This document shows, piece after piece, positions 3,256 through 25,788 of a DNA stretch of 25,790 nucleotides. The first letter of the stretch is position 1, and each line of letters opens with the position of its first letter. Below the pieces are notes generated by a model. That model did not search any database and was not told where the DNA came from. It saw nothing but the letters and a program-made list of their open reading frames with translations. The translations under genes and the position numbers were made by a program. Source of the stretch: a virus; the IMG/VR virus record IMGVR_UViG_3300025138_010588, positions 1-25,790 of that record; one strand, given 5' to 3'.

Positions 3256-3264
3256 TAAGGTCGG

Positions 3265-10921: not shown

Positions 10922-11941
10922 ATGAACAAATTTTTAATTATTACTTTAAGCATTCTGCTATTTTCAAACAAAGCATTTTCTGATTACACATTGATAATAC
11001 CTAGTCCTAAAGGTACAGGTACTTCTATATGGGGTGATGTTGTATCTAAAGAATTATCTAGATATCTAAAAGAAAAAATAAATGTAATTAATATTAAGGG
11101 AGGTAAAGGTAATTTAGGTTTAGAAACATTTAAAGAAAAATATAAAAATGATCCTAAAGCAATATTATTAGCTCATGGAGGAAACGCAACACAGTGGTTA
11201 ATTAATGATGTAAAGTGGTCGTTTAAAGATTGGGATTCTATACTAATACAACCTTATAATATTACAACTACAATTAAAAAAGGTTTCAATTGGAGAGATC
11301 AAAAATTAAATTTAGCAGATTGTTCAGGTTGTGTACCAGAAACTCTAGCATGGGCAATGTTAAAAGGATGGAATAATATAAATTTTATCAGAAAAATGTC
11401 AGCTGGTGAAGCAAAAACAGCTTGGTTAAGAGGTGATTTTAAATATATCAGAGAACCAGCAAGTAGACATATTAAAAATACTTTACCATTGATAAAGGAA
11501 GGTAAAGCTGTAAGATTATTTAATCATGGAATTTTTACTAAAAATGGATTTATTCAAGATCATAATTGGCCAAATACTCTTACAGCGGTTGATTTATATA
11601 AAAAAACTTATGGTAAAAAACCTGAAGGGGATATATACGAAGCTTATATTTTAGCCGCAGCTTGGAGAGATGGTTTACAAAAAGGTTTGTTTATGCATAA
11701 AAATTCCAATAGTAAAATTGTAATCGATGCATTTCGAAAAATGTTAAATTCAAAAGATTCTAAAAAATATTTAATTACTAAATTAGGTGACTATCCTATG
11801 TTTATAGGTAAAGAATCAAAGACAATAATGGATTCGTTATATAGATATGTAACACCAGAAAGATTAAAAACATTAATAAATTTTTCTAAAGAAAAAATGA
11901 AATGGTCTACTGCTATATATATTGGTAATAAAACTCAATGA
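10922..11941 (+). CDS. tctC: TctC/Bug-type periplasmic solute-binding protein
   Basis: 339 residues; the ATG follows GAGG six bases upstream. Residues 1-20 form a clear Sec signal peptide with a hydrophobic core and cleavage likely after Ala-Phe-Ser, before DYT. The mature start, with IIPSPKGTGTS, then a Val-Asn-Ile-Lys-Gly-Gly-Lys-Gly-Asn segment, matches the layout of TctC/Bug proteins, where the first strand and the GGxG-type loop contact the carboxylate ligand. Directly following tctA supports the call. It would bind a carboxylate in the periplasm and pass it to TctA. Ligand identity is not visible, and similarity to well-known Bug proteins is distant. Its stop overlaps the next ATG (ATGA), so binding protein and amidotransferase-like enzyme are translated together. 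Confidence 0.78.
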   Translation: MNKFLIITLSILLFSNKAFSDYTLIIPSPKGTGTSIWGDVVSKELSRYLKEKINVINIKGGKGNLGLETFKEKYKNDPKAILLAHGGNATQWLINDVKWSFKDWDSILIQPYNITTTIKKGFNWRDQKLNLADCSGCVPETLAWAMLKGWNNINFIRKMSAGEAKTAWLRGDFKYIREPASRHIKNTLPLIKEGKAVRLFNHGIFTKNGFIQDHNWPNTLTAVDLYKKTYGKKPEGDIYEAYILAAAWRDGLQKGLFMHKNSNSKIVIDAFRKMLNSKDSKKYLITKLGDYPMFIGKESKTIMDSLYRYVTPERLKTLINFSKEKMKWSTAIYIGNKTQ

Positions 11942-12924
11942 ATTTAAACGACGTAAGTTTTTTTACTTCTGAATTTGAACAAGGTAAAGAGCAATCAATT
12001 GATGATGATTTTTTTAAAGAAAGATCTTATCTAGGAGGGTGGACTGTATCTGAACGTCATCCATATAAAGGTCTTAAAAGAAAGCAATCAAAAGATATTT
12101 TACCTAGTAAAATAATAAACAATTCTAAACCTTCAGATCTCAGAAACATTATAGAAAAAGTTATACTTAAATATGCTACTGACAAAAATGTTATTCTTTT
12201 GAGTGGTGGTAAAGACAGTACAACATTAGCTCATATTTTTAAAAAATTAAATATACCCTTTATTCCAATAAGTTTATATTCAACAATATCACAATTCACT
12301 GAACAAAATACTGTGAAACAGATTGAAAAAGAATTGTCAATCGAAGTTAATTATTTTAAAGTTGATAAAATTGAATTGAAAGATTTTAAATATTGGATCG
12401 AAAATCCTTATACTGCTAAAAGAAAAGCAATTGAAGAATTAGGTTTATTAGATTACACTATTTTTACAGGGGAAATAGGTACAGGAGAAATGCAAATAGA
12501 CCAATCGTTACAATACACTGCAATGATGGGTTATAAACCACATGATCTTTCACATTGGCATGTAAATGTTTGTGGAAGTTATAGAAGGATTAATTCTGTT
12601 AAAAAATTACACAACTGTCCTATATATTCAGACTGTGTAAATTATTTTATAAAAAGATTTGATCAATGGAATAAACATCCGGATATTTTAAATAGAGTCA
12701 TGTTTTCAAGATTACAAGACGAAGGGGCTTACAGGATTTTTAATAACAATTTAGATAATTTAAATTGGGTTCATCCATTTGCAGATTCTGAATTTATTCA
12801 TACATGTGTCAACATGGAAAGTACTTTTAAAGGTAATAAAAATCTTTATAGATTAATGTACAATGATTTAACTGATATTCCTTGGAGGTACCCAAAAAGT
12901 GGACTCGGCATACCAACTGTTTAA
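11938..12924 (+). CDS. Asparagine-synthase-like amide-forming enzyme lacking the glutaminase domain
   Basis: 328 residues. The pyrophosphate loop VILLSGGKDSTTLAHIF (SGGKDS at 89-94) is intact and preceded by a helix (DLRNIIEKVILKY), as in the synthetase domain of AsnB. The C-terminal end, with HPFADSEFIHTCV, then K-NLYRLM, then LTDIPWRYPKSGLGIPT, parallels the AsnB signature of (R/H)PFxD, KxxxR, then KxGxxxP. The family activates a carboxylate as acyl-AMP and attacks it with ammonia or an amine. Here the N-terminal Gln-hydrolysing Cys domain is missing, so free ammonia, another amine, or an intramolecular nucleophile as in beta-lactam synthetases could be used (inference). It sits just after a carboxylate binding-protein gene. 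The next gene starts inside its last codons. Confidence 0.75.
   Translation: MNLNDVSFFTSEFEQGKEQSIDDDFFKERSYLGGWTVSERHPYKGLKRKQSKDILPSKIINNSKPSDLRNIIEKVILKYATDKNVILLSGGKDSTTLAHIFKKLNIPFIPISLYSTISQFTEQNTVKQIEKELSIEVNYFKVDKIELKDFKYWIENPYTAKRKAIEELGLLDYTIFTGEIGTGEMQIDQSLQYTAMMGYKPHDLSHWHVNVCGSYRRINSVKKLHNCPIYSDCVNYFIKRFDQWNKHPDILNRVMFSRLQDEGAYRIFNNNLDNLNWVHPFADSEFIHTCVNMESTFKGNKNLYRLMYNDLTDIPWRYPKSGLGIPTV
12884..12889 (+). promoter_or_regulatory. Strong ribosome-binding site (GGAGGT) setting a GTG start
   Basis: GGAGGT lies inside the end of the preceding gene, nine bases before the GTG at 12899. It is the best Shine-Dalgarno match in the neighbourhood and supports the non-ATG start of the 131-residue gene, which has no in-frame ATG until its last codons. 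Confidence 0.65.
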
Positions 12925-13294
12925 TTTAAAAAATTTAATAATACTTTCAAATGAAAAAACAAAAAAAAGTTTTATTAAAAATGTATACCCTTACAATATA
13001 GATTGTATAGTTAAACACAAACACGAAGTAAAAAAACTTCAGGGTAATTTTAAAATTGTTTTTATAGGTTGTTTTATTGAAGAACTTAATAACCATGAAA
13101 ATATTATTTTAGATGATTTTATAAAATTAAATTATCAACAATCAGATCCTTTCAAATTAAAATGGACACCTGAAAATTTAGCAACATTTATAAGTGTATG
13201 GTTTAAACAAGATAAGATAAGAAAATTAAATAATAACTTTGATAATTACTACAAATCAAAAAATAAAACATGGTTAAAAGAAATAATGATATAA
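12899..13294 (+). CDS. Unknown protein, 131 residues
   Basis: I do not recognise this family. It starts at GTG with a strong GGAGGT ribosome site and overlaps the preceding asparagine-synthase-like gene by 26 bases in another frame. The protein is small, Lys/Asn-rich, with alternating hydrophobic strands (NLIILS, FKIVFIGCF) and helices, which would suit a small Rossmann-like alpha/beta fold; no catalytic motif is obvious. The final part contains Trp residues in a helical setting. Codon use and base composition look like its neighbours. Its coupling suggests it works with the amide-forming enzyme upstream or the oxygenase downstream, perhaps as a partner subunit, but this is inference. Confidence 0.6.
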   Translation: MDSAYQLFNLKNLIILSNEKTKKSFIKNVYPYNIDCIVKHKHEVKKLQGNFKIVFIGCFIEELNNHENIILDDFIKLNYQQSDPFKLKWTPENLATFISVWFKQDKIRKLNNNFDNYYKSKNKTWLKEIMI

Positions 13295-13301
13295 ATATTA
13301 C

Positions 13302-13763
13302 ATGATAGATTTACAAAGAATATTAAAAGAAATGGAAGACAATTTACCAACATACACAAATGCTATATGTTTACAAGGTGTGAAAGATTTTTTAGATCCG
13401 TTTTATGCAACCGGTTTATTATCTGCAGTAAAAAAAGATCCAAGCCATATACCAAGAAATTTTAATGTATCAATTTTTCCTAATATGACTTATACTAATT
13501 CAATATTGAGTGAATTGAAAATGTACAGAACAAGATTACTTAAATTGAATCCTAAAACGTGTTATTCTTATCACGTAGACAGAGAACAAAGAATACATAT
13601 TCCTATTGTAACAAATGAAAATAATTTTTTTATAATAGATAATGAGGTTAAAAGATTACCTGCAGATGGTAATCATTATCTGTTAGATACTACAAAACCT
13701 CATACGTTTGTAAATGCATCATTTGATGATAGAATACATATAGTAGGTTGTGTGTATAATTAA
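13302..13763 (+). CDS. Aspartyl/asparaginyl beta-hydroxylase-like 2-oxoglutarate/Fe(II) oxygenase
   Basis: 153 residues, a single cupin-like domain. The metal-binding pattern YHVD (His91, Asp93), then RIHIPI (Arg97-His99), then KPHTFVN (His134) and DDRIHIVG (Arg144) matches the AspH family layout HxD ... H with an Arg that binds 2-oxoglutarate. The family hydroxylates Asp or Asn side chains, in proteins or free amino acids, and is common in natural-product clusters. Here it is the last gene of the cargo operon, seven bases after the 131-residue gene, with no clear ribosome site. A substrate linked to the amide-forming enzymes upstream is an attractive guess. Its stop codon interlocks with that of the opposing glycosyltransferase gene. 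Confidence 0.78.
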   Translation: MIDLQRILKEMEDNLPTYTNAICLQGVKDFLDPFYATGLLSAVKKDPSHIPRNFNVSIFPNMTYTNSILSELKMYRTRLLKLNPKTCYSYHVDREQRIHIPIVTNENNFFIIDNEVKRLPADGNHYLLDTTKPHTFVNASFDDRIHIVGCVYN

Positions 13764-14320
13764 TCAAAACTATAATGAACTAGCTTTACTTCACCATCTT
13801 GAAAAAACTTGCCTTTAAAGGCTCTTTGGACCCACCATTCAGGAACTGTTCTAACCTCGAGAGTTTCTCTAATTGTGTCCTCGACAAAGTATTGTTCTCC
13901 GTTAACTGGTCCAACTGTTGTCTGATTTTTAATATATTTAGTTGTATAATATTCAGGTTTTTCTCTGAATCTGTTGACAACATACTTACATTCTTTTGGA
14001 TAATATTTATAGAAGCCTCCATTAATTTTATATTCTTCTTTATATGTATCTTTCCACCAACTAGGAATACTTATAAACTCTCCTTTTTTAATAGGATAAT
14101 TAAACAACTCATTATAGTTATTAAACAAACCAATGTCAACATCTATTACACATATAGGTTCATCGATATCTAGATCCATAAATCTCAATTTGTTCCATTG
14201 TAGTATAAATGGATTTGTTGATTTGTTTATAAAAGTTATACCTGGTATTTTTTCTTTGAGATAATCTTCATATTCAGGTCCATATTTGTTGCCTATTCGA
14301 ACAGCATATACTTTGACCAT
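13760..14320 (-). CDS. Small glycosyltransferase-like protein (GT-A, DxD) 1
   Basis: 186 residues. An N-terminal strand (VKVYAVRIG) followed by NKYGPEY parallels the start of the 241-residue protein (INFFTFKWGAKYGPEY). A central strand leads to the VIDVDIG acidic motif (Asp60-Val-Asp62), the DxD that binds a metal and sugar nucleotide in GT-A enzymes, preceded by QWNKLRF as in the sister proteins. It would transfer a sugar to an unknown acceptor in the cytoplasm. It is shorter than most GT-A enzymes, so it may be minimal. It is the last gene of the leftward operon; its start overlaps the upstream glycosyltransferase by 28 bases, and its end overlaps the opposing oxygenase gene by 4. Confidence 0.68.
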   Translation of the reverse strand: MVKVYAVRIGNKYGPEYEDYLKEKIPGITFINKSTNPFILQWNKLRFMDLDIDEPICVIDVDIGLFNNYNELFNYPIKKGEFISIPSWWKDTYKEEYKINGGFYKYYPKECKYVVNRFREKPEYYTTKYIKNQTTVGPVNGEQYFVEDTIRETLEVRTVPEWWVQRAFKGKFFQDGEVKLVHYSFD

Positions 14321-14847
14321 GGTCCATGCTCCCTCATTTTTTCATACGCTTGGTTAAATATTGTTACGTCCCATTTGTCATTGAAACCTTGCCAATTGTA
14401 AGATGTGCATATTGGATTATATGTGTTGTAGCTCATATCTAATTCGTAAATGTATTGATCAATGCCTTTATATTTCATCATATAATAATCCGGATTAGTT
14501 ACAAAAATATTATAGTAAAATGAATAATCACCTTCCCAGGACATTATAGAAGAATTTAAAGGCGTGTGGTGTTTAGTTCTCCACCATGCAGTTAATAATG
14601 TTAATTCTTTTCTTTGTAAATGTTCAACGTTTTTTGTTAAGCACACATCCAAATCTAAATATAAATAAGGACCTTTTTTAAAGTCTCTAAACAACTGAAG
14701 TTTATTCCACACACCATCATACTGTTCGTCAGTAATTATATGAACATTATTATACCTTGTACCAGTTCTATCTAACATATAAATTATATTATCAGTATAA
14801 ATTTGAGGATATTTATCTCCCGTATTGACTAATAATATATCAAGCAT
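14293..14847 (-). CDS. Small glycosyltransferase-like protein (GT-A, DxD) 2
   Basis: 184 residues. It starts with a beta strand (LDILLVNTG) and DKYPQIY, then VHIITD, then VWNKLQLF and the DxD strand PYLYLDLDVC (Asp65 and Asp67). Later residues include SSIMSWEGD, closely matching SSVVMWEGD in the 241-residue protein, so the two are paralogues. The acceptor is unknown. It overlaps the upstream methyltransferase-like gene by 8 bases. GT-A fold assignment rests on the DxD strand, the N-terminal strand and the similarity among the three. Confidence 0.72.
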   Translation of the reverse strand: MLDILLVNTGDKYPQIYTDNIIYMLDRTGTRYNNVHIITDEQYDGVWNKLQLFRDFKKGPYLYLDLDVCLTKNVEHLQRKELTLLTAWWRTKHHTPLNSSIMSWEGDYSFYYNIFVTNPDYYMMKYKGIDQYIYELDMSYNTYNPICTSYNWQGFNDKWDVTIFNQAYEKMREHGPWSKYMLFE

Positions 14848-15469
14848 TCCATTTACCTATAGTAATAAATCTTCTGTATGTATCAAACCAAATTTTATCA
14901 CCATGTAACATTTTAACTTTGTTATCTTCAGCTAATTGTACAGCAGATTGTTTACAATTTATATGGTCAGGTTCATCAATTTTATCATTTGAAGTTAACA
15001 TTAACAATGTTCTCTCAGGATTAATGAAATATTTTTTCATGTCAGCAAAGTCTCTCATGTGTTCACACGATGTATTAATTAAAATATGAGCTCTTCTATT
15101 TTCTTCATAAGTAAACCAGTCTTGTTCATATACGTTAATATTAAAATAAGGATTGAATTCTTTTATGTATCTATGTAGAACCTTTACAGCAAATGGATCC
15201 ATTTCGAAAAAATTGATTTTTAATATTGAGCTGCCAAAGTATTTTTGCAGCATACCAATAAGAGGCCATCCAAACCAACCACCTACTATTTCAATAATAA
15301 TTTTACCATCTTCGTTTTTGGGTATAACAATATTCTTTTCTTTTAGACCTAATAATAATTGTTCTTTAGATTTCTGCTGATTGAATGAAACAGATTCAAC
15401 AAACCTATCTATTTTATCTAAATGATTATTGTAAAACCATTTTAACATATTTGCATATTCAATCTGCAT
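14840..15469 (-). CDS. Rossmann-fold methyltransferase-like protein
   Basis: 209 residues. After a helical N terminus comes IIIEIVGGWFGWPLIGML (near 57-74), a strand and glycine turn like motif I of class I SAM methyltransferases, then INFFEMDPFAV (near 84-94) with an acidic residue ending strand 2, then VYEQDWFTY, and HILINTSCEHM resembling the post-motif strand. The C-terminal part ends WFDTYRRFITIG, like the strands of a seven-strand sheet. SAM binding and methyl transfer are the likely role, but motif I is unusual (GGWFGW) and the substrate is unknown. It sits between two small glycosyltransferase genes and the Rossmann-like 138-residue gene, suggesting methylated sugar or glycan chemistry. 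ATG with AAAGGGAA upstream. Confidence 0.58.
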   Translation of the reverse strand: MQIEYANMLKWFYNNHLDKIDRFVESVSFNQQKSKEQLLLGLKEKNIVIPKNEDGKIIIEIVGGWFGWPLIGMLQKYFGSSILKINFFEMDPFAVKVLHRYIKEFNPYFNINVYEQDWFTYEENRRAHILINTSCEHMRDFADMKKYFINPERTLLMLTSNDKIDEPDHINCKQSAVQLAEDNKVKMLHGDKIWFDTYRRFITIGKWNA

Positions 15470-15875
15470 TGTTTCCCTTTACTACAAACCACTTATCTAT
15501 GTTATAACTAAAATCAACGTTTGTTATATTATTTTGTTCTATTAATACATCTACGTTATCAATGGGGTTACAATCTCCATTGTGTTGATCATTGTCTCCT
15601 ATAACTATCATATCACCTTTATAAACATTACCTATAGGATAATGCTTTTCAGCATTAAAGTCAACAACTAATTCGTTAAATTTAACATTGTCATATATCA
15701 CATCTCTTGGATTAGGAAATTTAGGATCATAGTCAACAACATCAACGTCTATTCCTATACCTTCTAACATATAAACCAACTCTGTTCTTTCATTACATGC
15801 AACTAATGAAACAGATTCGTAACCTTCGCTGATAATTGTATCTAGTAATAACTTTTCCAGATTTCTTCTGCCCAT
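15459..15875 (-). CDS. Small Rossmann-like protein, possible methyltransferase relative
   Basis: 138 residues, ATG after GAGGTAAAAGG. A strand SVSLVACNERTELVYML (near 22-38) is followed by IDVDVVDYDPKF (near 42-53), which looks like strands 1 and 2 of a SAM-type Rossmann fold, but no glycine-rich motif I is seen. A later strand MIVIGDNDQHNGD and the end WFVVKGN resemble the IINTSCEHM and RFITIG strands of the 209-residue neighbour. It might be a divergent or inactive partner of that protein. It overlaps the glycosyltransferase gene upstream by 34 bases and the 209-residue gene by 11. Function remains uncertain. Confidence 0.5.
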   Translation of the reverse strand: MGRRNLEKLLLDTIISEGYESVSLVACNERTELVYMLEGIGIDVDVVDYDPKFPNPRDVIYDNVKFNELVVDFNAEKHYPIGNVYKGDMIVIGDNDQHNGDCNPIDNVDVLIEQNNITNVDFSYNIDKWFVVKGNNAD

Positions 15876-16567
15876 CCTTTTACCTCATCTAATTCGTATG
15901 CTTTTTCTGTAATACCTTTATTGTATAATATATGAGAAGTATTGAAAATACTTATCTTACCTTTTTTCTGAAAATATTCTCTATTGTAATTACTAACTAT
16001 TCCCTCGTCCCAAAAATCCATCAAACCTTTTCTATGAGCTTGATAGAATAAAAATTTATCTAAAGATTTATATGTAAAGAAAGATTGTTTTTCATTATTT
16101 AGTAATAGTTTATATAAGTATCTACCACTGTCACCTTCCCACATGACTACAGACGAGTTAACATGGCAAGAAACACCTTTACCATACCATTTCTCTGATC
16201 TCTCTTTATAATTATTCCAATAGTTCCATATAAATTTTGGTCTAGGTAAATCTTGTTCAATTAAATTATCTATATTATCATGTATCAATATATCTAAATC
16301 TAACCAACAATTTCTTCCTTCTACAAATTTGTCGAATAAGACGAGTTTTTCTCTAGTAAAGATTTGATTTTTTGGATAATGAAAAGGATCGAAGCTGGTA
16401 TAATCGATAGTATTGATATTGCTATCAATACCGTAAACATTATCAGTAATAACATTAAGTACAAAGTTGTGACTACAGTTATTCCGTAAACTTCCATAAA
16501 GTCTATTGACGTATTCCGGGCCATATTTAGCTCCCCATTTAAATGTGAAAAAGTTTATTGTGGCCAT
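15842..16567 (-). CDS. Glycosyltransferase-like protein (GT-A, DxD) 3
   Basis: 241 residues, the longest of the three related glycosyltransferases. The N terminus INFFTFKWGAKYGPEYVNRL has a strand, then the KYGPEY motif shared with the 186-residue protein. FTREKLVLF then leads to NCWLDLDILI, with the DxD pair Asp90/Asp92. SSVVMWEGD follows, as in the 184-residue protein. This pattern resembles GT-A enzymes that act on sugar nucleotides; donor and acceptor are unknown. It overlaps the radical SAM gene upstream by 13 bases and the small Rossmann gene downstream by 34. Confidence 0.75.
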   Translation of the reverse strand: MATINFFTFKWGAKYGPEYVNRLYGSLRNNCSHNFVLNVITDNVYGIDSNINTIDYTSFDPFHYPKNQIFTREKLVLFDKFVEGRNCWLDLDILIHDNIDNLIEQDLPRPKFIWNYWNNYKERSEKWYGKGVSCHVNSSVVMWEGDSGRYLYKLLLNNEKQSFFTYKSLDKFLFYQAHRKGLMDFWDEGIVSNYNREYFQKKGKISIFNTSHILYNKGITEKAYELDEVKGWAEEIWKSYY

Positions 16568-17604
16568 AAAGCATGACCTGTACCTATTTTACGTTTAGGT
16601 ATTTTACTATCAGCAGATGAAACACAAGTTTTAGTTGAACATATTTTAGGTTTGTCAAATAATTTAAAACCCTTATGTATATATCCTAATGGTTCATCTC
16701 TACAGCTGTAGCTACGTTTAATACTACCATCAGGCTCTCTAATTATTATAGATCTATAACCTGATGAACATTCCCAACCTTCGAATTTATTAAAATTAAA
16801 TGCATTAAATCTTTCAGCTTGATCCATCCACCAAATATTATTTTTAGAATCTCTCATCTCAACTTGAAAGATTTGTTTGCCTTCTAGTTTTTGAGGCATA
16901 CCATTATGCAATATGTCTAACATTTCATCTGTATAACCATCAACAATAAATGAAGCTGTTGGATCTGATTGAGGTTTAAGAGTTACATTTATATTTTTCT
17001 CAGCAAAAAAATTAGCATCTTCTAAACACTGCCAAAATGTATCTAATAACATAACTTGATTGATAGTTATTTTTGTTCCATTGTCTTGTAGATAAACTAA
17101 CTTATCTCTAAACTCTTCTAACTTAGTTTGAGTATTAACAGACTCTCTATGACATGAAGCTGTGATAGAAGCTCTGTTAAGTTTTTTAGCTATGTTTAAA
17201 TATTTGTCCCACCAAGGTCCTTTCCTTGATAAATTTGTAGTCATATGAATAGAAGTATAATTACAATTGCTAGCATCATTAGCAAGATGATTAATAATTT
17301 CAAGATACCCAGGATGAAAAGTAGGCTCGCCGCCACTAAGACTAAAATGAAAAGAATTAAATCCATTGTCCCTCGCTTGTCTTTTTATTTCGTCTATTGT
17401 CATTAAACATAAATCAATGTCTCTGTGATCTTTCTTACTTGATCTAGCATACGGCCAACAATAAGAACAATTATAGTTGCAAAATCTACCTAATAACCAT
17501 GATACAGTAAACAAATCTTTAGTTACCATTGTATGCTGTCCAACCATTTCAATATCATTAAATGGTATTTTATTAAAATTATAGTTACTCTTACTTAATT
17601 CCAT
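16555..17604 (-). CDS. Radical SAM enzyme with Cys-rich C terminus (no N-twitch)
   Basis: Using the ATG at 17604, 349 residues (MELSKSNYNF start); the open frame runs 6 codons further to another ATG at 17622, but the 17604 start mirrors the neighbour at 18683. The cluster motif is CNYNCSYC (Cys42, 46, 49 counted from that start), followed by FSLSGGEPTFHP, the SAM-binding GGEP. Late cysteines in WECSSG, SYSCRDE and ICSTKTC resemble an auxiliary-cluster SPASM or twitch region. Radical SAM enzymes cleave SAM to a 5'-deoxyadenosyl radical and carry out C-H chemistry. The substrate is unknown; it sits between a thioesterase and glycosyltransferases. It lacks the N-terminal Cys domain of the four right-hand radical SAM genes. 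Confidence 0.88.
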   Translation of the reverse strand: MELSKSNYNFNKIPFNDIEMVGQHTMVTKDLFTVSWLLGRFCNYNCSYCWPYARSSKKDHRDIDLCLMTIDEIKRQARDNGFNSFHFSLSGGEPTFHPGYLEIINHLANDASNCNYTSIHMTTNLSRKGPWWDKYLNIAKKLNRASITASCHRESVNTQTKLEEFRDKLVYLQDNGTKITINQVMLLDTFWQCLEDANFFAEKNINVTLKPQSDPTASFIVDGYTDEMLDILHNGMPQKLEGKQIFQVEMRDSKNNIWWMDQAERFNAFNFNKFEGWECSSGYRSIIIREPDGSIKRSYSCRDEPLGYIHKGFKLFDKPKICSTKTCVSSADSKIPKRKIGTGHALWPQ

Positions 17605-17944
17605 GAGGATAAGGTTTTCCATCTTTTATATTAACAAAAACAATGTTATCTACTTCAGTAATAATTTTTTTAGTTTTAATATTTCTTACAGTAGCTTTAA
17701 TTGTTATACTAGTTTTTCCTAATTTTATTGTATCCATTCCTATTTCAATTATATCACCATGCTCAGCGCCAGCTATAAAATCTATTTTTCCTATAGTTCT
17801 CGTAACAACATTTCTACTATCAAGTTGACAACTAACATAGATATATGCTTCTTCGTCAATCCAATCAAGTACTCTTCCTCCAAATAATACACCTATAGCA
17901 TTTAAATCTTTAGGAGCTATCATTTTTCTAGTTCTATATATCAT
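17591..17944 (-). CDS. YciA-like acyl-CoA thioesterase (hotdog fold)
   Basis: 117 residues from ATG at 17944, which has GGAG at 17951-17954 six bases upstream; a longer TTG-started frame is less likely. The N terminus, with PKDLNAIGVLFGGRVLDWID, carries the thioesterase signature (N..G..FGG..(L/M)xW(M/I)D), with the Asn and the Asp that activates water. The core then shows strands VVTRTIGKIDFIAGAEHGDI and SITIKATVRN typical of the hotdog fold. Family members hydrolyse acyl-CoA or acyl-carrier thioesters, usually as hexamers. A phage copy might control acyl groups on a small product or free CoA. It overlaps the upstream and downstream genes. Confidence 0.88.
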   Translation of the reverse strand: MIYRTRKMIAPKDLNAIGVLFGGRVLDWIDEEAYIYVSCQLDSRNVVTRTIGKIDFIAGAEHGDIIEIGMDTIKLGKTSITIKATVRNIKTKKIITEVDNIVFVNIKDGKPYPHGIK

Positions 17945-18683
17945 TATTATCTCCAAAGTATTGGGTGAATAATTTATCTCCTAAAATTTTTTGTACTTGT
18001 GAGAATTTAATTCTATCATTTTGTAATTTAATAATTAATTCACTTTGTTGTTTGATTGTATTTTTAAATTGATTGTTATATTTTTTAATTGCATCATCTT
18101 TCTTTTTTCTCACTCTACCATTATGTACCTTTCTGTAGATATAATTTAAGCTATTGTTAATGTAATCTTTTTTATGATACGTATATTTAGATATCCATTG
18201 ACTGGTAGTAAGAATTTTAATGTCATTATAATTAAGCAACAACCAAAATTTATTATTTTTATCTAAAAATATTTTTTGTAAAAAATTAATATGATCACCA
18301 TTTGGTTCGAAGGAAATTATAAAATCATTTTTTTTAAATATAGAATTTGAAACATTTAAAAAGTTTAAATTAATTATTCCATTGACAAAAAAATAAAAAT
18401 TTTTTAAATCATTATTAGTAAATGGATAGTTGTCCTCTAGAAGATTATAAAAAGAATTAATATTCTTTAAATAATCAGTTCCTATTACTGCTTCGTATTC
18501 TCTATTCTCGTAAATTTTAACATTAGGTAAAAAATCTATTTGTTTTGAAATATGGAAAATATACTTTTTTAAACTTTCGAAATGTTCTTTGTTAAAGTTG
18601 TTTTTTAATTTAACAAATTTATATACTGTATTATTTTTAATATCTATCTTTATATTATCAAAATTTGTATTGCTTAATTCCAT
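17934..18683 (-). CDS. Unknown 249-residue protein with C-terminal tail shared with a radical SAM protein
   Basis: No family recognised. The protein is Asn/Lys/Phe-rich. After an N-terminal part with hydrophobic strands (VYKFVKL, FYFFVNGIINLNFL) it becomes a charged helical stretch (RVRKKKDDAIKKY). It ends QKILGDKLFTQYFGDNNDI, closely like the end EKVIGKSLYNFYFGRNNEM of the radical SAM protein at 21378-22793. Both tails follow charged, coiled-coil-prone helices. The ATG overlaps the upstream radical SAM stop by 10 bases. It could be a scaffold or partner protein for the radical SAM enzymes. Confidence 0.6.
   Translation of the reverse strand: MELSNTNFDNIKIDIKNNTVYKFVKLKNNFNKEHFESLKKYIFHISKQIDFLPNVKIYENREYEAVIGTDYLKNINSFYNLLEDNYPFTNNDLKNFYFFVNGIINLNFLNVSNSIFKKNDFIISFEPNGDHINFLQKIFLDKNNKFWLLLNYNDIKILTTSQWISKYTYHKKDYINNSLNYIYRKVHNGRVRKKKDDAIKKYNNQFKNTIKQQSELIIKLQNDRIKFSQVQKILGDKLFTQYFGDNNDI
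17951..17954 (-). promoter_or_regulatory. Ribosome-binding site (GGAG) fixing the thioesterase start
   Basis: On the minus strand GGAG lies six bases before the ATG at 17944. An upstream TTG in the same frame overlaps this site, so ATG is the better start. Confidence 0.55.
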
Positions 18684-19699
18684 TGAGCTACATAAGGATC
18701 AAATTTATCATTACATTTAACTAAACATGTTTTGAGTTTATTATCTCCACTCCATCCTTTTTGTATTTTTTTAAAAAAACCACTTTCCATTACTTCTTTT
18801 ACAGAACTATCTAAAGCATTGATATTATAACCATTAATAAATTCCCAGATCTGCGAAGCTTCAGGTTGATGATACCACTTATACATTTGACCTGCAGTCC
18901 AACAACAAGGTAAAACAAATCCTTCAGCTGAAATGTAAATTTCTTTTTTCTGTACACACTTAGGTACTACTCTAAATGTTTCTAATGAATCAGTTAAATT
19001 AATATTCTTTTCAAGTTCTTTATTTCTATAATCTTTATTCTTTGGTTTGCTTAATAATGCTCCTAAACCTTTTCTAAAAATTGCTTGATGTTGTTCTTTT
19101 TTTTCTAAATTAGCTGTTAAATATCTACCTGACTTTTTTACTATAAATTTATTAATACCTAATAATTTTGAATATCTCTCTGCTTCTTGTACTTGATGTT
19201 CATTATAATTAAAAACTAGAAACGTCCAATCTCCTTTACCTCCTGCACTAGTAAAAGCATCTATGTTCTCTTCAACATTTTTCCAAACTACACCTTGTCT
19301 GTATAAATGATTTGTGTCTTCTAATCCATCCACAGAAAAGTTAACATGTACATCTAATTTAGCTAACTCCACCCACCAATCAGCTTTTCTAGCTCCTCCA
19401 TTTGTAGTGATACCTAATTTGAGATACTTATTTTTTGATCTCATATATTCAAACATTTCTAAACACTCAGGTGCAAATATAGGGTCTCCGTGATTACCAC
19501 AAAAATATATATTATCTAATTGATGTAAAAAAGATTCCGGAAAAATATGTTTAATATTTTCTAGTGATAAAGATTTATTTTTAAGATAAGGATTAACATC
19601 TCCACCATTCATATTCCTATCACACATAGGACATGATGCCTGACAAAGTTGTGTAGTTTCTAAATGAACCATTCTAATATTTTTATATTCATATGTCAT
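18674..19699 (-). CDS. Radical SAM enzyme with SPASM-like C-terminal cysteines
   Basis: 341 residues; its ATG shares a base with the kinase stop (TAATG). The cluster motif CQASCPMC starts at Cys19 (19, 23, 26), very early, so no N-twitch domain is present. C-terminal cysteines occur in CVQKKEIYISAEGFVLPCCW and in CLVKC, the layout of a SPASM-like domain holding extra Fe-S clusters (the GxxxPCC pattern). The usual GGEP segment is replaced by FCGNHGDPIFAPE. It probably acts on a peptide or small amino compound, as many SPASM proteins do, but no precursor peptide was identified nearby. Confidence 0.87.
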   Translation of the reverse strand: MTYEYKNIRMVHLETTQLCQASCPMCDRNMNGGDVNPYLKNKSLSLENIKHIFPESFLHQLDNIYFCGNHGDPIFAPECLEMFEYMRSKNKYLKLGITTNGGARKADWWVELAKLDVHVNFSVDGLEDTNHLYRQGVVWKNVEENIDAFTSAGGKGDWTFLVFNYNEHQVQEAERYSKLLGINKFIVKKSGRYLTANLEKKEQHQAIFRKGLGALLSKPKNKDYRNKELEKNINLTDSLETFRVVPKCVQKKEIYISAEGFVLPCCWTAGQMYKWYHQPEASQIWEFINGYNINALDSSVKEVMESGFFKKIQKGWSGDNKLKTCLVKCNDKFDPYVAQWN

Positions 19700-20208
19700 T
19701 ATCTATTACCAATTATTGTAAATAATTCAGTTAATTGAATTTGTGTTTTTAGATATGGGAAGTTGTTTAACTTTCTATTAAACCATATAGATTCAGGATC
19801 TATTATCTTTAATTCGCCTTTGCCTACATCTATAATATTTGAAAGAGTCAAATCTCGATGTATGCATTGCTCACCTTCATGTTTTGAAAAATTATATAAT
19901 TGTGATATTAACAAATTAATGTTAATACTTATATTAAACAATTGTGTTACATTTATAGTATCTTCATACTTGTAATCATCAACATTAATTCCAATAACTT
20001 TTTCCATTATCATTTCATTGTCATTTATACTATATATTTTAACTAGTTGTGGACAATATTCTCTAAGATGATTATACTTGTCTAACCATCCGTCGTGGTT
20101 TAAATGTATATAATTTTTAGTCATTATTTTTTTAACATGGTCTTCATTTATATAAACTGTGGAGTAAGGTCTATGAATTGTAATCGTTGTATCTTCACTA
20201 ATAAACAT
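19699..20208 (-). CDS. Minimal kinase-fold protein (APH/lipopolysaccharide kinase-like)
   Basis: 169 residues from ATG at 20208, which has AAGGA (20218-20222) nine bases upstream; the open frame reaches a TTG two codons earlier. The catalytic loop CIHRDLTLSN (HRDL at about 117-120 and Asn124) and the metal-binding IIDPES (Asp137) are those of the kinase superfamily, with DPES in place of DFG as in small APH- or Kdo-kinase-like proteins. The N lobe is very short: one Lys-containing strand region (VKKIM) precedes it. It probably phosphorylates a small molecule or sugar. It sits between two radical SAM genes. It could also be a pseudokinase, though the catalytic Asp and Asn are kept. Confidence 0.7.
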   Translation of the reverse strand: MFISEDTTITIHRPYSTVYINEDHVKKIMTKNYIHLNHDGWLDKYNHLREYCPQLVKIYSINDNEMIMEKVIGINVDDYKYEDTINVTQLFNISININLLISQLYNFSKHEGEQCIHRDLTLSNIIDVGKGELKIIDPESIWFNRKLNNFPYLKTQIQLTELFTIIGNR

Positions 20209-21388
20209 AATCAAATATCCTTGGAGCTAACAACGAAGCATCTCTATTATATAATGTATCTTGCATTTTAACTATATCTTTAAATGTTTCTTTTGGTATT
20301 GTTCTTTTACCTTTAAGTCTTTTAATAATATCTTTAGTAAATTCATTTTCTTCTATTTCATTGAGTAAAATAACTTTTGTTTTCTCATCTAAATTAACCA
20401 TGTCTAATCCTGCAGGGGAGTGAACGAACGTAGTTCTAATATTAATATCTAGATTGTTATAAGAAATTTTATTTAATTCTTTTCTTAATTTAAAAAAATC
20501 TTTAGAAATTTTATTCATGTAAAAAACATGATAACTACATGATGTACAAACTAACAATAAACTTTTTAAATTTTTACAATTTTTAACAATTGTTTTAAGA
20601 TTTTTAACAACTTGGTTATAATCACCTTTGTGTCTAAAATAATTAAATAAATTACCAGTACCATCAAAACTAACTGTAATATGTACACCTTTAAAATGTT
20701 TCCAAAGTTCAATCAAATCATATTTTTTAAATTTTATTAAACTCATATTAGTGTTGTAACTTAATGTAATTTTTTTTGTATCTATATTTTTATCATTTAT
20801 CATTCTTTCCAGTGTCTTATACATATCTATATGATAGAAAGGTTCACCACCTGCAAATTCTAATTTTTGTATGTTAGGAATTATGTTAAGAAATAGATCA
20901 TCCATTACATCAGATGTAGGTTTATCAATTACCTTACCTCTTTTATTAACAACATGATCAAAGTTATGGTCTTTGTATAAAGTTTCAGCAATGTATTTGT
21001 TTTTATTTCCAACCAAAATAAAATTTGAATTTGATTTTACATCACAATGCATACAATTAAAATTACATGTATTGCTCATCTTTAATTGTAAATCAGTAAT
21101 GACAACATTGTCATTTTCATAATCAGGAGTTGATATAGTACTTTCTAAAGACCTTTGTCTGTATGATTTGATATCATTTTCTTCTTGTATACGACAATCT
21201 TTACAACCTACAGGCCATTCGTTTTTTCTAAGTTGTCTTCTTACATCTTTCCAATGTTCATTATTAATTACATCTGAAGGTAGATCTGGAATTTTACCTA
21301 AATTATTATTGTATAATTTAAATCTATAACAAGGAGCATAACCTCCAGGTTTAAAATCTAAATGTGACCATGCATGTTTACATTTCAT
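20198..21388 (-). CDS. Radical SAM enzyme with N-terminal twitch-like Cys domain (copy 4)
   Basis: 396 residues from ATG at 21388; the frame extends 4 codons to a TTG at 21400, which is unlikely. N-terminal cysteines at 3, 20, 62 and 65 (C-x2-W-x-H start, then C, then GCKDCRIQEE) match the N-twitch layout of its right-hand neighbours, with CY instead of CC. The radical SAM motif CNFNCMHC (108, 112, 115) is followed by EFAGGEPFYH. A later region IKFKKYDLIELWKHFKGVHI continues the barrel. N-twitch proteins are thought to hold an extra Fe-S cluster before the barrel; their substrates are mostly unknown. Starts 11 bases inside the upstream gene. Confidence 0.88.
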   Translation of the reverse strand: MKCKHAWSHLDFKPGGYAPCYRFKLYNNNLGKIPDLPSDVINNEHWKDVRRQLRKNEWPVGCKDCRIQEENDIKSYRQRSLESTISTPDYENDNVVITDLQLKMSNTCNFNCMHCDVKSNSNFILVGNKNKYIAETLYKDHNFDHVVNKRGKVIDKPTSDVMDDLFLNIIPNIQKLEFAGGEPFYHIDMYKTLERMINDKNIDTKKITLSYNTNMSLIKFKKYDLIELWKHFKGVHITVSFDGTGNLFNYFRHKGDYNQVVKNLKTIVKNCKNLKSLLLVCTSCSYHVFYMNKISKDFFKLRKELNKISYNNLDINIRTTFVHSPAGLDMVNLDEKTKVILLNEIEENEFTKDIIKRLKGKRTIPKETFKDIVKMQDTLYNRDASLLAPRIFDYVY

Positions 21389-22793
21389 TGTTTCGACCAA
21401 AGTAAAAATTATATAATGACTTACCTATAACTTTTTCTATTGTTTCTTTTTTAATGGAGTTTTGAAGTTTTTGATTATGTACCAAATTTATTTCTTTAAT
21501 ATTTTTTCTACTAGCTTCAACAGTTAGATTATTCCTTAAATTTAATTCTGCTACTTCTTCGTGATGTCTTATTTTAAATTCTTCAATCAAATCAATTTTT
21601 TCTTTTGCAACATCTTCTATAAAAGTATCATACTTTTCATATTTTTTAAAAAAATTATAAAGTTCTGGATTATAATCTTCTAAAGACATTTTGTAAAATT
21701 TATCTGTAAGTTTAATTTGTTTTTGTATTAGTTTCCAATTTTTATTATTAAAATTTGAAGTTTGATCTATTTCTTGTTTAGTAACTTTAGTCATTGTATG
21801 TTGATTCCAGTCTACTATACTATCTAACCACAAATGATACCAAGGAGGAGCATGAGTAGGAGATGTTAATCCACTTGCAACTGCAGATGAAATTGTGAGA
21901 CCAGGCATGTTTTTTTTCTCTTTTTCCCAAAAATCAATTGTTTCATTGATACAGTTTATATTTAAAATAGACCACGTGATGTGTATATGCGGTTTGGATA
22001 TATTATTAAGTTGTTGTAGATACAATTTATAATTTTTAACGGAATCTTCAAAATTGCTATTGACTCTTTGATAGTCATTGTACTTGTATATACCATCTAT
22101 ACTGCCAGTTAGTCTTATTTTTTTAAATTTGTTTAATAATATTACAACATCATCTTGTAATATCTTTGTACAGTTAGTAACAATTTCTAATGTAATTTTA
22201 TCAGGGTTACCTTTAGATATAAAAAAAATTAAAAATTCTTTAAACTGAGGAGATAAAAAAGGCTCACCTCCCAGTAATTTTATTTCAGTCAAGTGTTCCC
22301 ATGATATATCTAAAGCTTTCAACTTTTCAAATCTTGACTTGTTATTAACTTTAGCAGGTTTCATAAATTGTATATCATCACCAAACATATTTGGATTGCT
22401 ATCGTGTAACATAATATCTCTTTTTAGCAACTTTGATGAAAACAAACTATTACACATTTTACATTCAAGGTTACATGTGTTATCTAAACTTATTTCAATA
22501 AATTTTAATGGTAATGGTTCAATAGTTAAATTATTTATTTCTTTTAATTTAAAGTTTTTATTAGCTGTTGATCTCATAGAATGTGTATTTTGATCTTCTA
22601 TATAGCATCTTGTACATTCTTTAGTCTTTACTCCATCGAGCATGTTTTTTCTTAACCATTCGTATTCTTTATAATAGTTATCAATTGTTACATTTGATTT
22701 TTGACTAAATCTACAACAAGGTCTAACACTATCCTTCATAGTAACAGTGAAATGTAACCAAGGCAACATACATATAACACCATTATCTTCCAT
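21378..22793 (-). CDS. Radical SAM enzyme with N-twitch domain and coiled-coil C-terminal tail (copy 3)
   Basis: 471 residues from ATG at 22793, preceded by AAGGA (22801-22805); a TTG one codon earlier is ignored. The N-terminal ICMLPWLH, RPCCRFS and ECTRCYIEDQ hold Cys8, 26/27, 60 and 63. The cluster motif CNLECKMC (107, 111, 114) and KLLGGEPFLSP follow. After residue about 340 there is a long charged helical stretch (KEKIDLIEEFKIRHHEEV and on) ending EKVIGKSLYNFYFGRNNEM, a tail not seen in the other N-twitch copies but matching that of the unknown 249-residue protein. Tandem paralogue of the genes on either side. Confidence 0.9.
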   Translation of the reverse strand: MEDNGVICMLPWLHFTVTMKDSVRPCCRFSQKSNVTIDNYYKEYEWLRKNMLDGVKTKECTRCYIEDQNTHSMRSTANKNFKLKEINNLTIEPLPLKFIEISLDNTCNLECKMCNSLFSSKLLKRDIMLHDSNPNMFGDDIQFMKPAKVNNKSRFEKLKALDISWEHLTEIKLLGGEPFLSPQFKEFLIFFISKGNPDKITLEIVTNCTKILQDDVVILLNKFKKIRLTGSIDGIYKYNDYQRVNSNFEDSVKNYKLYLQQLNNISKPHIHITWSILNINCINETIDFWEKEKKNMPGLTISSAVASGLTSPTHAPPWYHLWLDSIVDWNQHTMTKVTKQEIDQTSNFNNKNWKLIQKQIKLTDKFYKMSLEDYNPELYNFFKKYEKYDTFIEDVAKEKIDLIEEFKIRHHEEVAELNLRNNLTVEASRKNIKEINLVHNQKLQNSIKKETIEKVIGKSLYNFYFGRNNEM

Positions 22794-24117
22794 CAAACAG
22801 TCCTTTATATTGAGGTACTATTTTAGTTACATCTTGATTTCTTATTACGTCTAATTTTTTTGTTTGACTTATAAACTCATGTAAATATTGTTTTGAATAA
22901 TCTTCACTCATCATAAATTTAACAACCCCGTCTAAAATTTTTATAAAATTATTTTTAACATGTTCTGAATATTTAGTAGAATAAATCAAATCTTTATATA
23001 ATTCAAAATAATCCCATACTTGATTTTTAGTATCTAAAGGTAAAACTTTTATATTAAAATATTTAGGACTATGACACATGTGGTGTGTTATCAATGGTCT
23101 AGGACTTGAAATGGGATTGAATTTATCTAAACCACTCTTTTCAAGTTTCCATTTCATAAATTCAGGAAGATGGAATATATTATATGGAGTGATAGTAAAA
23201 GCAAACCATGCTTTTAAATTAATTCTATCATTATTCTGTAAGGAAAGCATATTTTTATATACGTTTGAAAATTTAGCAGGTGTACGTTGATAATCAAACA
23301 CTTCATCTATACCATCTATACTAACCCCTATTCTTATTTGTTTAAATTGTTCCCACAAAGAAATTAATTTATTAGGAACCATTGTAAGGTTACTATTATA
23401 TTCTATCTGTATATTTTTAGATTTACCACTATCAACTAATCTTTGTAGACTTTCTTGATGCTCTGGAATTATAAGAGGTTCTCCTCCTACTATATAAAGT
23501 TTTTTAGCATCAGGAGCGTATTGTTCAAAATTTGACCAATATCTGTTATTATTTTTAAACCAATTGAAATGATCAGTATCTAATTTACCTTTTTTATTTT
23601 TATGTAAAGTAACTTTTGAAGAACCATCTTTGAAAGTAGGTGTATCTGAATTTTGTAGTTTAGCAAGATCATCGTACCATTTATTACTATCTGTTGGACC
23701 ACACATTCTACATTTTAAATTACAAAAATTTCCATATCTCAAATCCATAAATTCAATCTTTTGTTTAGATGTATCCAATGTACCGTCTTTTTTAGTATTA
23801 TGTAATACGTTTGTTTCTACCCAATCCTCTTTCTCATATTCTCTTCTACTTTTAACACCATTCACTTCTTCTTGTCTACAACGTTCGCATTCTGGATGCC
23901 ATTTGTCTTTCATCATAGTGGCTCTTACTTCTTTCAAAAGAGGAGCATTTCTTGCTTCATTCCAATCATCTTTACCTGCGTTGAAATAAGCTCCGTCTTT
24001 TTTTTTTAATAAACCTCTATTAGGCGTATAGCTATTTGTATTACAACATATTCTCATGTCGCCATTGTTACGTAAATTTATACTATTCCAAGGCAAAGGA
24101 CAAAAAGTTTTACTCAT
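22783..24117 (-). CDS. Radical SAM enzyme with N-twitch domain (copy 2)
   Basis: 444 residues from ATG at 24117, in an ATGA overlap with the stop of the right-hand gene; the frame runs six codons further to a TTG, but coupling favours ATG. FCPLPWNSI, MRICCNTN and ECERCRQEE supply Cys6, 24/25, 77 and 80. The radical SAM motif CNLKCRMC (132, 136, 139) follows FMDLRYGN, and YIVGGEPLI carries the SAM-binding glycines. It is closest to copy 1 in length and in the ..DLR.G..C.L.C.MC context, and both have NTK(K/E)DG before the barrel. The two probably arose by tandem duplication. Confidence 0.92.
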   Translation of the reverse strand: MSKTFCPLPWNSINLRNNGDMRICCNTNSYTPNRGLLKKKDGAYFNAGKDDWNEARNAPLLKEVRATMMKDKWHPECERCRQEEVNGVKSRREYEKEDWVETNVLHNTKKDGTLDTSKQKIEFMDLRYGNFCNLKCRMCGPTDSNKWYDDLAKLQNSDTPTFKDGSSKVTLHKNKKGKLDTDHFNWFKNNNRYWSNFEQYAPDAKKLYIVGGEPLIIPEHQESLQRLVDSGKSKNIQIEYNSNLTMVPNKLISLWEQFKQIRIGVSIDGIDEVFDYQRTPAKFSNVYKNMLSLQNNDRINLKAWFAFTITPYNIFHLPEFMKWKLEKSGLDKFNPISSPRPLITHHMCHSPKYFNIKVLPLDTKNQVWDYFELYKDLIYSTKYSEHVKNNFIKILDGVVKFMMSEDYSKQYLHEFISQTKKLDVIRNQDVTKIVPQYKGLFDGR

Positions 24118-25529
24118 TTGTACCACTCTAACCAATCCATTTCAGGAAATGTTTTATTGAAATCTAGATTTCTTTGTTTAGCAACTTTATAACACCATTC
24201 GTTAGTAGCATTTAATCTTGTAGACCAATCTTCAGCATGCATAAAGTTTAAAAGTCCTTGTATTCTTTTTAGACCATATTCACTTTCAGACCAAACATCA
24301 TAACTTATATCTTCAGTACCAGTACACATTTTCCAATTTTCTTTTAACCAAGGATATAATTCTTCATCAAACTTCTGTGATGTTTCATTTTTAAACCATT
24401 GTGGTAGAACTTTAATGTTTAATTGTGGAGGCCAATAAGCTAGATGACAAGAAAACATTCCAGCACCACTTGGCCATTTATTAAGTAGTTTAAATTTACT
24501 TTTAAGTTTCCATTTTAAAAATTCTGGTAGATAATATATGTTTAAAGCTATTCCAGTCCAAGCAGTAGTGAGTGATAAATTTCCATGAGGATAATTATCT
24601 AATTTATGAATCTGTTGTTCTATTTGATTCCAATCGCTTGGGTATCTTATATATTCTAATCTTTCTTCTATATCATCTATTGAAAAATGAAATATAACAT
24701 TACGGAACTGCTTCCACAAATCAAATAAATCTTCTCTCCACTCAATACCATTACTATTATATCTCAATTCAATATTTTTAGCTAACCCGTCTTTAATAAT
24801 TTTTTCTAATAAAGTATAATGATCATCCATTATAAGAGATTCACCACCTGCCCAATATAACTGTTTGAGGTGAGGTAATTGTTCATACAATTCTTTCCAA
24901 AAGCTAGGATTTTTTTTATGCCAATTATACGAACCACCAGACCAAGCTAGCTTGCCAGATTCTTTTTCCCATGCCATAGATTTTTTTAATTGATCGTTTT
25001 TCAATATAGGATATATTTTTTTATGTTCAGGTACCCAATTAGAACTATCATGAGGAGAACACATTACACATGCAAGTTGACATTTAGATCCAAGTCTAAG
25101 ATCTATATATCTTATTTTAGGATCAATACTACCGTCTTCTTTTGTATTACCTATAATATCATCAATACCTAATTCGTTTACCCACTTACGTGTTTCCCAT
25201 ATTCTTTTACTTCTATGACCAGACTCTTCTTCTTTGAAACACTTAGTACACGATTGAGGTTGTTCTCCTTTAAGCATCATTTTACGAATACTTTTCATGT
25301 ATTCATTGTTCCAAGATTCTAACAAACCTGTGGTGGCAAGATTAGCAGGCTTTCCATCGTCTCTTCTCAATACACCTGATTCAGAAACAGTTTTGTTATT
25401 TGAGTCTGCATTTACACTCACAGCACTTGCGTTAGCTGTACAACAAACTCTCATGTGACCATTAGGTCTAGTTGAAAGATGTAGCCAAGGTAAAGCGCAA
25501 AAAGTTTCTGATGGTAATTTATTTGTCAA
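24114..25529 (-). CDS. Radical SAM enzyme with N-twitch domain (copy 1), TTG start
   Basis: 471 residues. The start must be TTG at 25529 or nearby, since a stop lies two codons upstream and the first in-frame ATG (residue 26) would cut off the conserved FCALPWLH block. Cys11, 29/30, 94 and 97 (FCALPWLHL, MRVCCTAN, SCTKCFKEE) build the N-twitch region. CQLACVMC (150, 154, 157) is the cluster motif. The SAM-binding segment reads YWAGGESLIM, with GGES for GGEP. Relative to copy 2 it has an extra 20-residue Asn/Ser-rich insert near 33-55. It overlaps the small helical gene upstream by 11 bases, so reinitiation may help the weak start. Confidence 0.9.
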   Translation of the reverse strand: MTNKLPSETFCALPWLHLSTRPNGHMRVCCTANASAVSVNADSNNKTVSESGVLRRDDGKPANLATTGLLESWNNEYMKSIRKMMLKGEQPQSCTKCFKEEESGHRSKRIWETRKWVNELGIDDIIGNTKEDGSIDPKIRYIDLRLGSKCQLACVMCSPHDSSNWVPEHKKIYPILKNDQLKKSMAWEKESGKLAWSGGSYNWHKKNPSFWKELYEQLPHLKQLYWAGGESLIMDDHYTLLEKIIKDGLAKNIELRYNSNGIEWREDLFDLWKQFRNVIFHFSIDDIEERLEYIRYPSDWNQIEQQIHKLDNYPHGNLSLTTAWTGIALNIYYLPEFLKWKLKSKFKLLNKWPSGAGMFSCHLAYWPPQLNIKVLPQWFKNETSQKFDEELYPWLKENWKMCTGTEDISYDVWSESEYGLKRIQGLLNFMHAEDWSTRLNATNEWCYKVAKQRNLDFNKTFPEMDWLEWYK

Positions 25530-25788
25530 GAATTAAAGCAGCAGTATATGCAACAGCTTCCATGAATGTTTGACTTTTTCTAAGTGAAGATTTCAATTCT
25601 CTATTAGTAGAATTTTTAACTTGTTCAATTTCAAAAGATTGTAATTTCAATTTAAACAAATCTTCATCTTTCATATTATAGAAATCAAAATTATCATCTT
25701 GTTGTGTTTGTTTTGTTTTTAAATTTATATCTTTGAGAATGTCTTTTTTTATTTTAGTTTCAAAAATTGTGTTTTGTTCTTCTAACAT
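25519..25788 (-). CDS. Small helical protein of unknown function
   Basis: 89 residues from an ATG two bases from the window edge; the gene may be complete or may extend further. The sequence is charged and helical (KDEDLFKLKLQSFEIEQV), with an Ala-rich end MEAVAYTAALILDK. No family recognised. It precedes the radical SAM array and its stop overlaps the TTG start of the next gene, so it is probably co-translated. A leader, chaperone or regulator role would be guesswork. Confidence 0.5.
   Translation of the reverse strand: MLEEQNTIFETKIKKDILKDINLKTKQTQQDDNFDFYNMKDEDLFKLKLQSFEIEQVKNSTNRELKSSLRKSQTFMEAVAYTAALILDK

Follow-up and report, generated by a model that had tools for sequence, protein, structure and literature searches.

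The minus strand of the 25,790-base virus record IMGVR_UViG_3300025138_010588 (IMG/VR; this whole stretch of DNA is called the window below) carries, from 25788 to 13760, fifteen overlapping or abutting genes, which include an array of six radical S-adenosylmethionine (SAM) genes. Exactly six matches to PF04055 were found in the record, all above the curated cut-off, on the minus strand and free of internal stops, and the CxxxCxxC motif is present in 6/6. They span 16555-25529 (~9.0 kb), in agreement with a preliminary description of six such genes on one strand within about 9 kb. The fifteen genes are the following.

25519..25788, minus strand: end of a protein (172 amino acids on contig L008), between the fibre-like genes and the array
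24114..25529, minus strand: rS1, N-twitch radical SAM, 471 amino acids, core gene; NF033640 389 bits
22783..24135, minus strand: rS2, N-twitch radical SAM, 450 amino acids; NF033640 348 bits
21378..22796, minus strand: rS3, N-twitch radical SAM, 472 amino acids, with a C-terminal helical tail; NF033640 202 bits
20198..21400, minus strand: rS4, N-twitch radical SAM, 400 amino acids, with a variant N-terminal motif; NF033640 216 bits
19699..20214, minus strand: small kinase-like protein, 171 amino acids; HRD..N..D motif, Seadorna_VP7 1.6e-3 (below cut-off), phrog_4098 2.2e-6
18674..19699, minus strand: rS5, radical SAM, 341 amino acids, with a weak C-terminal SPASM match (0.021), core gene; PF04055 42.8 bits
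17934..18683, minus strand: h249, with a C-terminal tail as in rS3; no family match
17591..17956, minus strand: hot-dog thioesterase; 4HBT 1.6e-11
16555..17622, minus strand: rS6, radical SAM, 355 amino acids, with a C-terminal Cys-rich region, core gene; PF04055 52.8 bits
15842..16567, minus strand: GT1, GT8-like glycosyltransferase by predicted fold; AlphaFold and Foldseek
15459..15875, minus strand: ros138, small protein, probable distant homologue of ros209; hhalign probability 74%, E 2.8e-5
14840..15469, minus strand: ros209, predicted class I SAM-transferase fold, core gene; AlphaFold, Foldseek E 1e-7
14293..14847, minus strand: GT2, small glycosyltransferase-like protein; BLAST to GT1 1.8e-9, phrog_1962 3.3e-4
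13760..14320, minus strand: GT3, small glycosyltransferase-like protein; BLAST to GT2 2e-4, fixed module order

The open reading frames (ORFs) of the array overlap by 8-34 nucleotides, and by 1 nucleotide at the kinase/rS5 junction, as measured with longest-ORF starts, several of which are TTG. Overlap had been described before, at 4 to 32 bases, and only the range needed revision; the thioesterase had been named correctly. rS3 and h249 share the C-terminal tail K-x-[IL]-G-x-x-L-x-x-x-Y-F-G-x-N-N, seen only in the window and in contig L009, which may possibly serve as a docking element.

The four genes rS1-rS4, described earlier as N-twitch genes in direct succession, all pass NF033640 in a profile search (N_Twi_rSAM, the NCBIfam model of twitch domain-containing radical SAM proteins; cut-off 170 bits), while rS5 (59 bits) and rS6 (42 bits) remain under the cut-off. 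The N-terminal motif said to be shared by all four holds for rS1-rS3 (CALPWLH..CC, CPLPWNS..CC and CMLPWLH..CC); rS4 has the variant CKHAWSH..CY, though its four N-terminal cysteines are present. Residues C12, C30, C83 and C86, together with the three radical-SAM cysteines, are invariant across 15 diverse N-twitch homologues, and CxxxCxxC is kept in 157/158 full-length viral N-twitch ORFs. Relative to the nearest relatives, the ratio of nonsynonymous to synonymous substitution rates (dN/dS) is 0.04-0.2, a range that covers rS1, rS5, rS6, GT1-GT3, ros138 and ros209 only, synonymous sites being saturated for rS2 and rS4. Gene decay with loss of cluster cysteines, which the preliminary description had named as a test of its claims, is therefore ruled out by the kept cysteines and the purifying dN/dS, and the six radical-SAM enzymes are, to judge from their sequences, intact.

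The identity among rS1-rS4 is 21-33%, and in a tree of 84 sequences, including phage and bacterial homologues, they fall into four separate lineages; tandem duplication in this phage is ruled out on both grounds. rS1 and rS2 cluster with viral and Bdellovibrionota proteins, rS3 with phage proteins only, and rS4 forms a long branch. From their number, it had been proposed that the paralogues act in succession on one scaffold. Since the lineages are old and separate and rS2-rS4 are swapped en bloc between close relatives, the pattern fits alternative tailoring enzymes no less well than a fixed series. No cut-off of the NCBIfam equivalogs for known SPASM/twitch peptide maturases was reached by any of the six, the best scores lying far under, and the model of prokaryotic viperin (NF038283, cut-off 180 bits) was matched best by rS6 at 41.4 bits. 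A search of the Protein Data Bank (PDB) by sequence with rS6 and rS2 gave no match. By tblastn, isolated phages contained no close relatives of rS6 or rS4, and distant ones only of rS1, rS2 and rS5. No precursor peptide was seen among ORFs of at least 60 amino acids in the array, the genes of which overlap; shorter peptides were not systematically searched. In another array, a stand-alone protein of 120 amino acids (L029:8339-8701) has a cysteine pattern like that of the C-terminal region of rS6.

The source is a marine T4-like phage, which accords with the phage origin first proposed. In the phage collection, the best cyanophage matches to its T4-type terminase (TerL) have 50-54% identity, and the region upstream of the array can be read from another contig (99.92% identity over 11.6 kb), in the order VrlC, gp14- and gp15-type proteins, tail-fibre-like proteins and then the array. 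The nearest match of VrlC is in Pelagibacter phage HTVC008M (28%), to which the gp14/gp15-type proteins also gave class matches. As these genes lie directly upstream on that contig, and terS/terL on the other side, the array is positioned inside the virion gene block. A low-GC marine host such as SAR11 would fit the pelagimyophage-like virion genes and the G+C content of 22-38%. Downstream of the array, the T4-type terS and terL are preceded by a plus-strand island (7480-13763) with genes for a nitronate monooxygenase, two PP-loop ATPases, a TctA transporter (1.3e-84), a secreted TctC-like protein and an Asp/Asn hydroxylase. The TctA protein had no PHROG match, and no DNA alignment was found between the island (7467-13767) and the related record G004.

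Considerable variation of the array was observed among phages. Twenty-two related virus records contain from 2 to 21 radical-SAM genes each, and orthologues of rS1-rS4 (73-76%, 60-62%, 37-41% and 54-57% identical, respectively) occur in the same order in several other phages, with other radical-SAM genes inserted. Across phages, rS1 orthologues are 73-94% identical, those of rS4 at 54-57% are found in L011-L014, L016 and L020, and rS6 has 594 viral matches. A comparison with G004 revealed that positions 13768-19693 and 24110-25782 of the window align at 79-87%, while the intervening 19694-24109 (rS2-rS3-rS4-kinase) has no counterpart in G004, which has other radical-SAM genes there; this segment has been replaced outright within the window's own lineage.

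The neighbouring enzymes had been described as three small glycosyltransferases, two Rossmann proteins and a kinase-fold protein, and these assignments stand to different degrees. The predicted structure of GT1, a model of moderate confidence (AlphaFold pLDDT 69), was matched by Foldseek to GlyE, LgtC, UGGT and glycogenin (E 1e-6); it has a GT-A fold like that of LgtC and glycogenin, with an invariant DLD. The predicted structure of ros209 (pLDDT 92) matched the SAM methyltransferases Coq5, PsoF and TrmK and also CntL and nicotianamine synthase, and it is possible that ros209 transfers a SAM group other than methyl. The second Rossmann protein, ros138, is a probable distant relative of ros209. 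For the putative kinase, the HRD...N...D motif and weak matches hint at a kinase-like protein and at nothing firmer. The order GT1-ros138-ros209-GT2-GT3 is kept in 18/34 non-redundant loci, most of the remaining ones being incomplete or close to contig ends, and at least three radical-SAM ORFs stand beside the GT1 module in 20/22 well-flanked loci. In addition, viral array neighbours include enzymes of the nucleoside diphosphate (NDP)-sugar epimerase/dehydratase and uridine diphosphate (UDP)-sugar dehydrogenase types.

Bdellovibrionota is a phylum with predatory bacteria, of which several groups attack bacteria. An N-twitch alignment scan of 84,980 species genomes returned mainly this phylum. 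N-twitch genes above the cut-off are present in 41/144 Bdellovibrionota genomes, with up to 39 such genes, versus 3/150 from Pseudomonadota, one of the three being the search centre, which was chosen because of its matches; none was detected in 14 reference genomes. Similarly, rS6 at E 1e-60 was found in 12/192 Bdellovibrionota genomes, with one match each, and in 0/200 from Pseudomonadota. Well-flanked rS6 loci in Bdellovibrionota also hold rS1 (11/11) and rS5 (8/11), and several hold ros209 and GTc3. Identities to the phage proteins in the core loci are 51-57% for rS1, 38-48% for rS5, 52-64% for rS6 and often 36-43% for rS2, and the ros209- and GTc3-family genes are likewise present, with order and orientation shuffled. 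By sequence comparison, the core shared with Bdellovibrionota chromosomes is made up of rS1, rS5, rS6, a predicted SAM-transferase-fold protein (ros209) and a glycosyltransferase-like protein. The conservation of neighbours, for which the preliminary description had asked, was found both here and in the phage glycosyltransferase modules.

The Bdellovibrionota contigs that carry the core are up to 936 kb long and gave no matches to the virion genes of the window. GT2-family enzymes are core neighbours in 6/80 cases, versus <2/80 in control regions of such genomes. In a quick tree of rS6, a branch (SH-aLRT, the Shimodaira-Hasegawa-like approximate likelihood ratio test, 94) separates the 12 cellular sequences from the rest, so this sample can be explained without repeated capture from hosts. 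The cellular counts exclude contigs L112, L114, L125, L133, L135, L137, L139 and L162 from metagenome-assembled genomes (MAGs), which may be viral. Dense phage-like radical-SAM arrays were observed on L112, L125, L133, L137 and L139, labelled Rickettsiales, Planctomycetota, Acidimicrobiaceae, Chloroflexi and Gammaproteobacteria; these are possibly viral contigs binned with bacteria. A further protein, of 979 amino acids (L074:723-3662), has about seven repeats and a terminal GTc3-type domain, adjoins rS6, and has no Pfam or PHROG match.

The product of the array is most likely a variable chemical decoration. We tentatively favour, at a little short of an even chance, a core-plus-cassette tailoring system in the late (virion) gene block, which diversifies a surface glycoconjugate on the host or the virion. 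GT1-GT3 would build a short glycan on a surface-exposed acceptor, either host envelope polysaccharide or a virion protein; rS1, rS5 and rS6, along with ros209 and ros138, would modify a sugar of the glycan or the attachment residue through radical C-H chemistry and SAM-dependent transfer; and the exchangeable N-twitch enzymes (rS2-rS4 in the window) would contribute variable steps. Related phages would thereby end with chemically different surfaces, as in serotype conversion or receptor masking. The neighbour enzymes weakly favour a glycoconjugate, and the GT8-like fold of GT1, the arrays beside 20/22 GT1 modules, the NDP-sugar enzymes and the GT2-family neighbours make the glycan link of the preliminary description probable.

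Several observations weigh against this interpretation. No glycosyltransferase family in Pfam matched GT1, GT2 or GT3, and GT2 and GT3 may be glycosyltransferases to the extent that their weak similarity to GT1 suggests. GTc3 has no family match and no profile match to GT1, and its candidacy as a GT1 homologue was dropped on the latter result. Glycosyltransferase modules are present in the relatives G439 and G444, which have no radical-SAM array, so module and array are separable. Among array neighbours, genes of the Asp/Asn hydroxylase type match those for sugar enzymes in frequency (6/80). The 25.8 kb, a fragment, yielded no nucleotide-sugar pathway, flippase, ligase or electron donor. Peptides are the substrates of many characterised SPASM radical-SAM enzymes, and a peptide target is therefore possible. 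The pathway had been called complete, a claim that finds no support in the window, where neither an acceptor nor a nucleotide-sugar supply, an exporter, an electron donor or a precursor peptide was identified.

The main rival, which we consider unlikely though the best of the alternatives, is that the array modifies virion proteins (tail, baseplate and fibres) in the manner of ribosomally synthesised and post-translationally modified peptides, by radical-SAM epimerisation, cross-linking, oxidation, Asp/Asn hydroxylation or glycosylation. It is consistent with the position of the array inside the virion gene block and with the recurrence of 2-oxoglutarate (2OG)/Asp-Arg-hydroxylase genes beside arrays; moreover, HTVC008M carries dioxygenase/2OG oxygenases and an annotated tryptophan halogenase in the same interval, between terS and terL (L191:13198-15157). 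A further argument is a strongly enriched D-S-(D/E) motif in the outer tail proteins of the clade, which resembles a modification site. In the virion proteins of this phage, 82 D-S-D were observed versus 5.2 expected and 13 D-S-E versus 2.1, with no enrichment of DTD, DND, DGD, DAD, NSD, DSN, ESE or ESD. The carriers are the outer tail proteins (sheath, gp8, gp13, gp14, gp15, VrlC and a large structural protein) and fibre proteins; the motif is not in the tube, portal, gp6 or terminase, and D-S-D is not concentrated in inner virion proteins or in enzymes. Motif-rich proteins lie at 2-5163 of the window (minus strand) and on L208, L194, L196, L373, L433, L435 and L440; the tail protein at 415-2529 of the window has five FG-GAP_2 repeats (2.1e-38) after an LDSD-rich repeat region.

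The motif occurs in most records in which terL is at least ~61% identical to that of the window and not in those at 51-57%, and a weaker D-S-A/D version was observed in a distant lineage (G001, G003 and G005; terL 43% in G001 and G005). A cause at the DNA level was ruled out, as many codings are used, including AGY serines, and the six commonest 9-mers, when checked, turned up only at these sites; a calcium-binding role is disfavoured by the lack of enrichment of DND, DTD and DGD. At first ros138 seemed to predict the motif, but this was due to a 130-bit threshold: at a lower one, ros138 is also found in motif-negative loci. The motif has the look of a clade-specific site for recognition or modification. 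Its role as substrate of the array is weakened by G439 and G444, which bear the motif and glycosyltransferase modules but neither a radical-SAM array nor any radical-SAM gene, and by G441 with one radical-SAM gene; because it occurs without an array and many array-bearing phages are without it, it is not the obligatory substrate. Modification of virion proteins is further opposed by the peptide-maturase equivalogs, none of which reaches its cut-off, and by the Bdellovibrionota, which have no virion and where some other protein would have to be the target of the core. It is quite improbable, in our view, that phages and Bdellovibrionota share a dedicated radical-SAM/glycosyltransferase machine that puts chemically variable decorations on the exterior of the attacking particle, for which the acceptor in phages would be the outer tail proteins, with D-S-(D/E/A) as attachment sites in at least some lineages.

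To us it is a long shot that the product is a secondary metabolite, either a diffusible small molecule or a modified peptide, set free by the infected cell or by the core-bearing bacterium. The mix of radical SAM enzymes, PP-loop ATPases, SAM transferase, thioesterase and kinase-like protein resembles natural-product clusters, Bdellovibrionota hold their N-twitch genes in large numbers (up to 39), and large proteins (b16/b17) that are PKS-like (polyketide synthase-like) by eye only are common to some cellular N-twitch loci (L150 and L159); however, no precursor peptide, non-ribosomal peptide synthetase, PKS or exporter is present in the window or conserved in phage loci, and the benefit for a lytic phage is not evident. 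Finally, a genomic landfill, in which radical-SAM genes pile up in a variable island without forming a single system, would account for the fast turnover of array content and the several unrelated enzyme types but is very improbable in view of the purifying selection, the fixed order of the glycosyltransferase module and the core that is kept together though shuffled in Bdellovibrionota.

The serotype-converting genes of phages are variable modular enzymes with glycosyltransferases that alter a surface. The system considered here is similar in its variable modular enzymes and glycosyltransferases and would also alter a surface; it differs in that radical-SAM enzymes dominate and no Gtr-type flippase or Oac acetyltransferase was seen. 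In the T4-related Campylobacter phages CP220 and CPt10 (Firehammervirus), which have 11-12 radical-SAM genes, a block that includes five of these is exchanged as a unit and contains or adjoins glycine amidinotransferase and nucleotide-sugar-transferase-like genes; metabolic fitness was the role proposed (Timms et al., 2010; PMC2853527). Replacement of a multi-gene radical-SAM block between relatives is a common feature of that type and of the window (19694-24109 against G004, between the 79-87% flanks). In contrast, only rS5 has a detectable relative in CP220/CPt10 (28.8%), and tblastn with rS1, rS2, rS4 and rS6 found none, which indicates that CP220-type phages have no N-twitch core at that sensitivity.

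According to the parts of two further papers drawn on here, a marine T4-like genome has 12 radical-SAM genes (Nishimura et al., 2017; PMC5332604), and the host recognition clusters of pelagimyophages differ by radical-SAM cassettes (PMC7029224, 2020). As described in those parts, these phages resemble that of the window in being marine and T4-like and in having radical-SAM cassettes and glycosyltransferases near tail genes, with gain and loss of cassettes; those parts mention radical-SAM genes in passing, with no N-twitch class, core, glycosyltransferase module or Bdellovibrionota counterpart, and the pelagimyophage cassettes lie there between VrlC and gp14, whereas the array of the window lies between the gp15/fibre-like genes and terS. 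NF033640, whose cut-off rS1-rS4 exceed with their N-terminal four-Cys domain, bears a name that gives no function, and no earlier description of phage arrays as its context was found in open-licence full texts; the same holds for the N-twitch core, its glycosyltransferase module and the Bdellovibrionota counterpart. Exchangeable multi-radical-SAM modules in T4-like phages were already known, and what is added here is the N-twitch core, its counterpart in Bdellovibrionota and the linked glycosyltransferase module.

Phages have been known since 2010 to carry large radical-SAM arrays, to which no function was assigned, and the split into core and cassette now provides a defined and testable gene set, for which the Bdellovibrionota counterpart offers a host for possible genetic study. 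If the product is a surface decoration, the array would represent an unrecognised radical-chemistry route to surface and receptor variation in phages, and new chemistry for C-H functionalisation would also be available from its enzymes.

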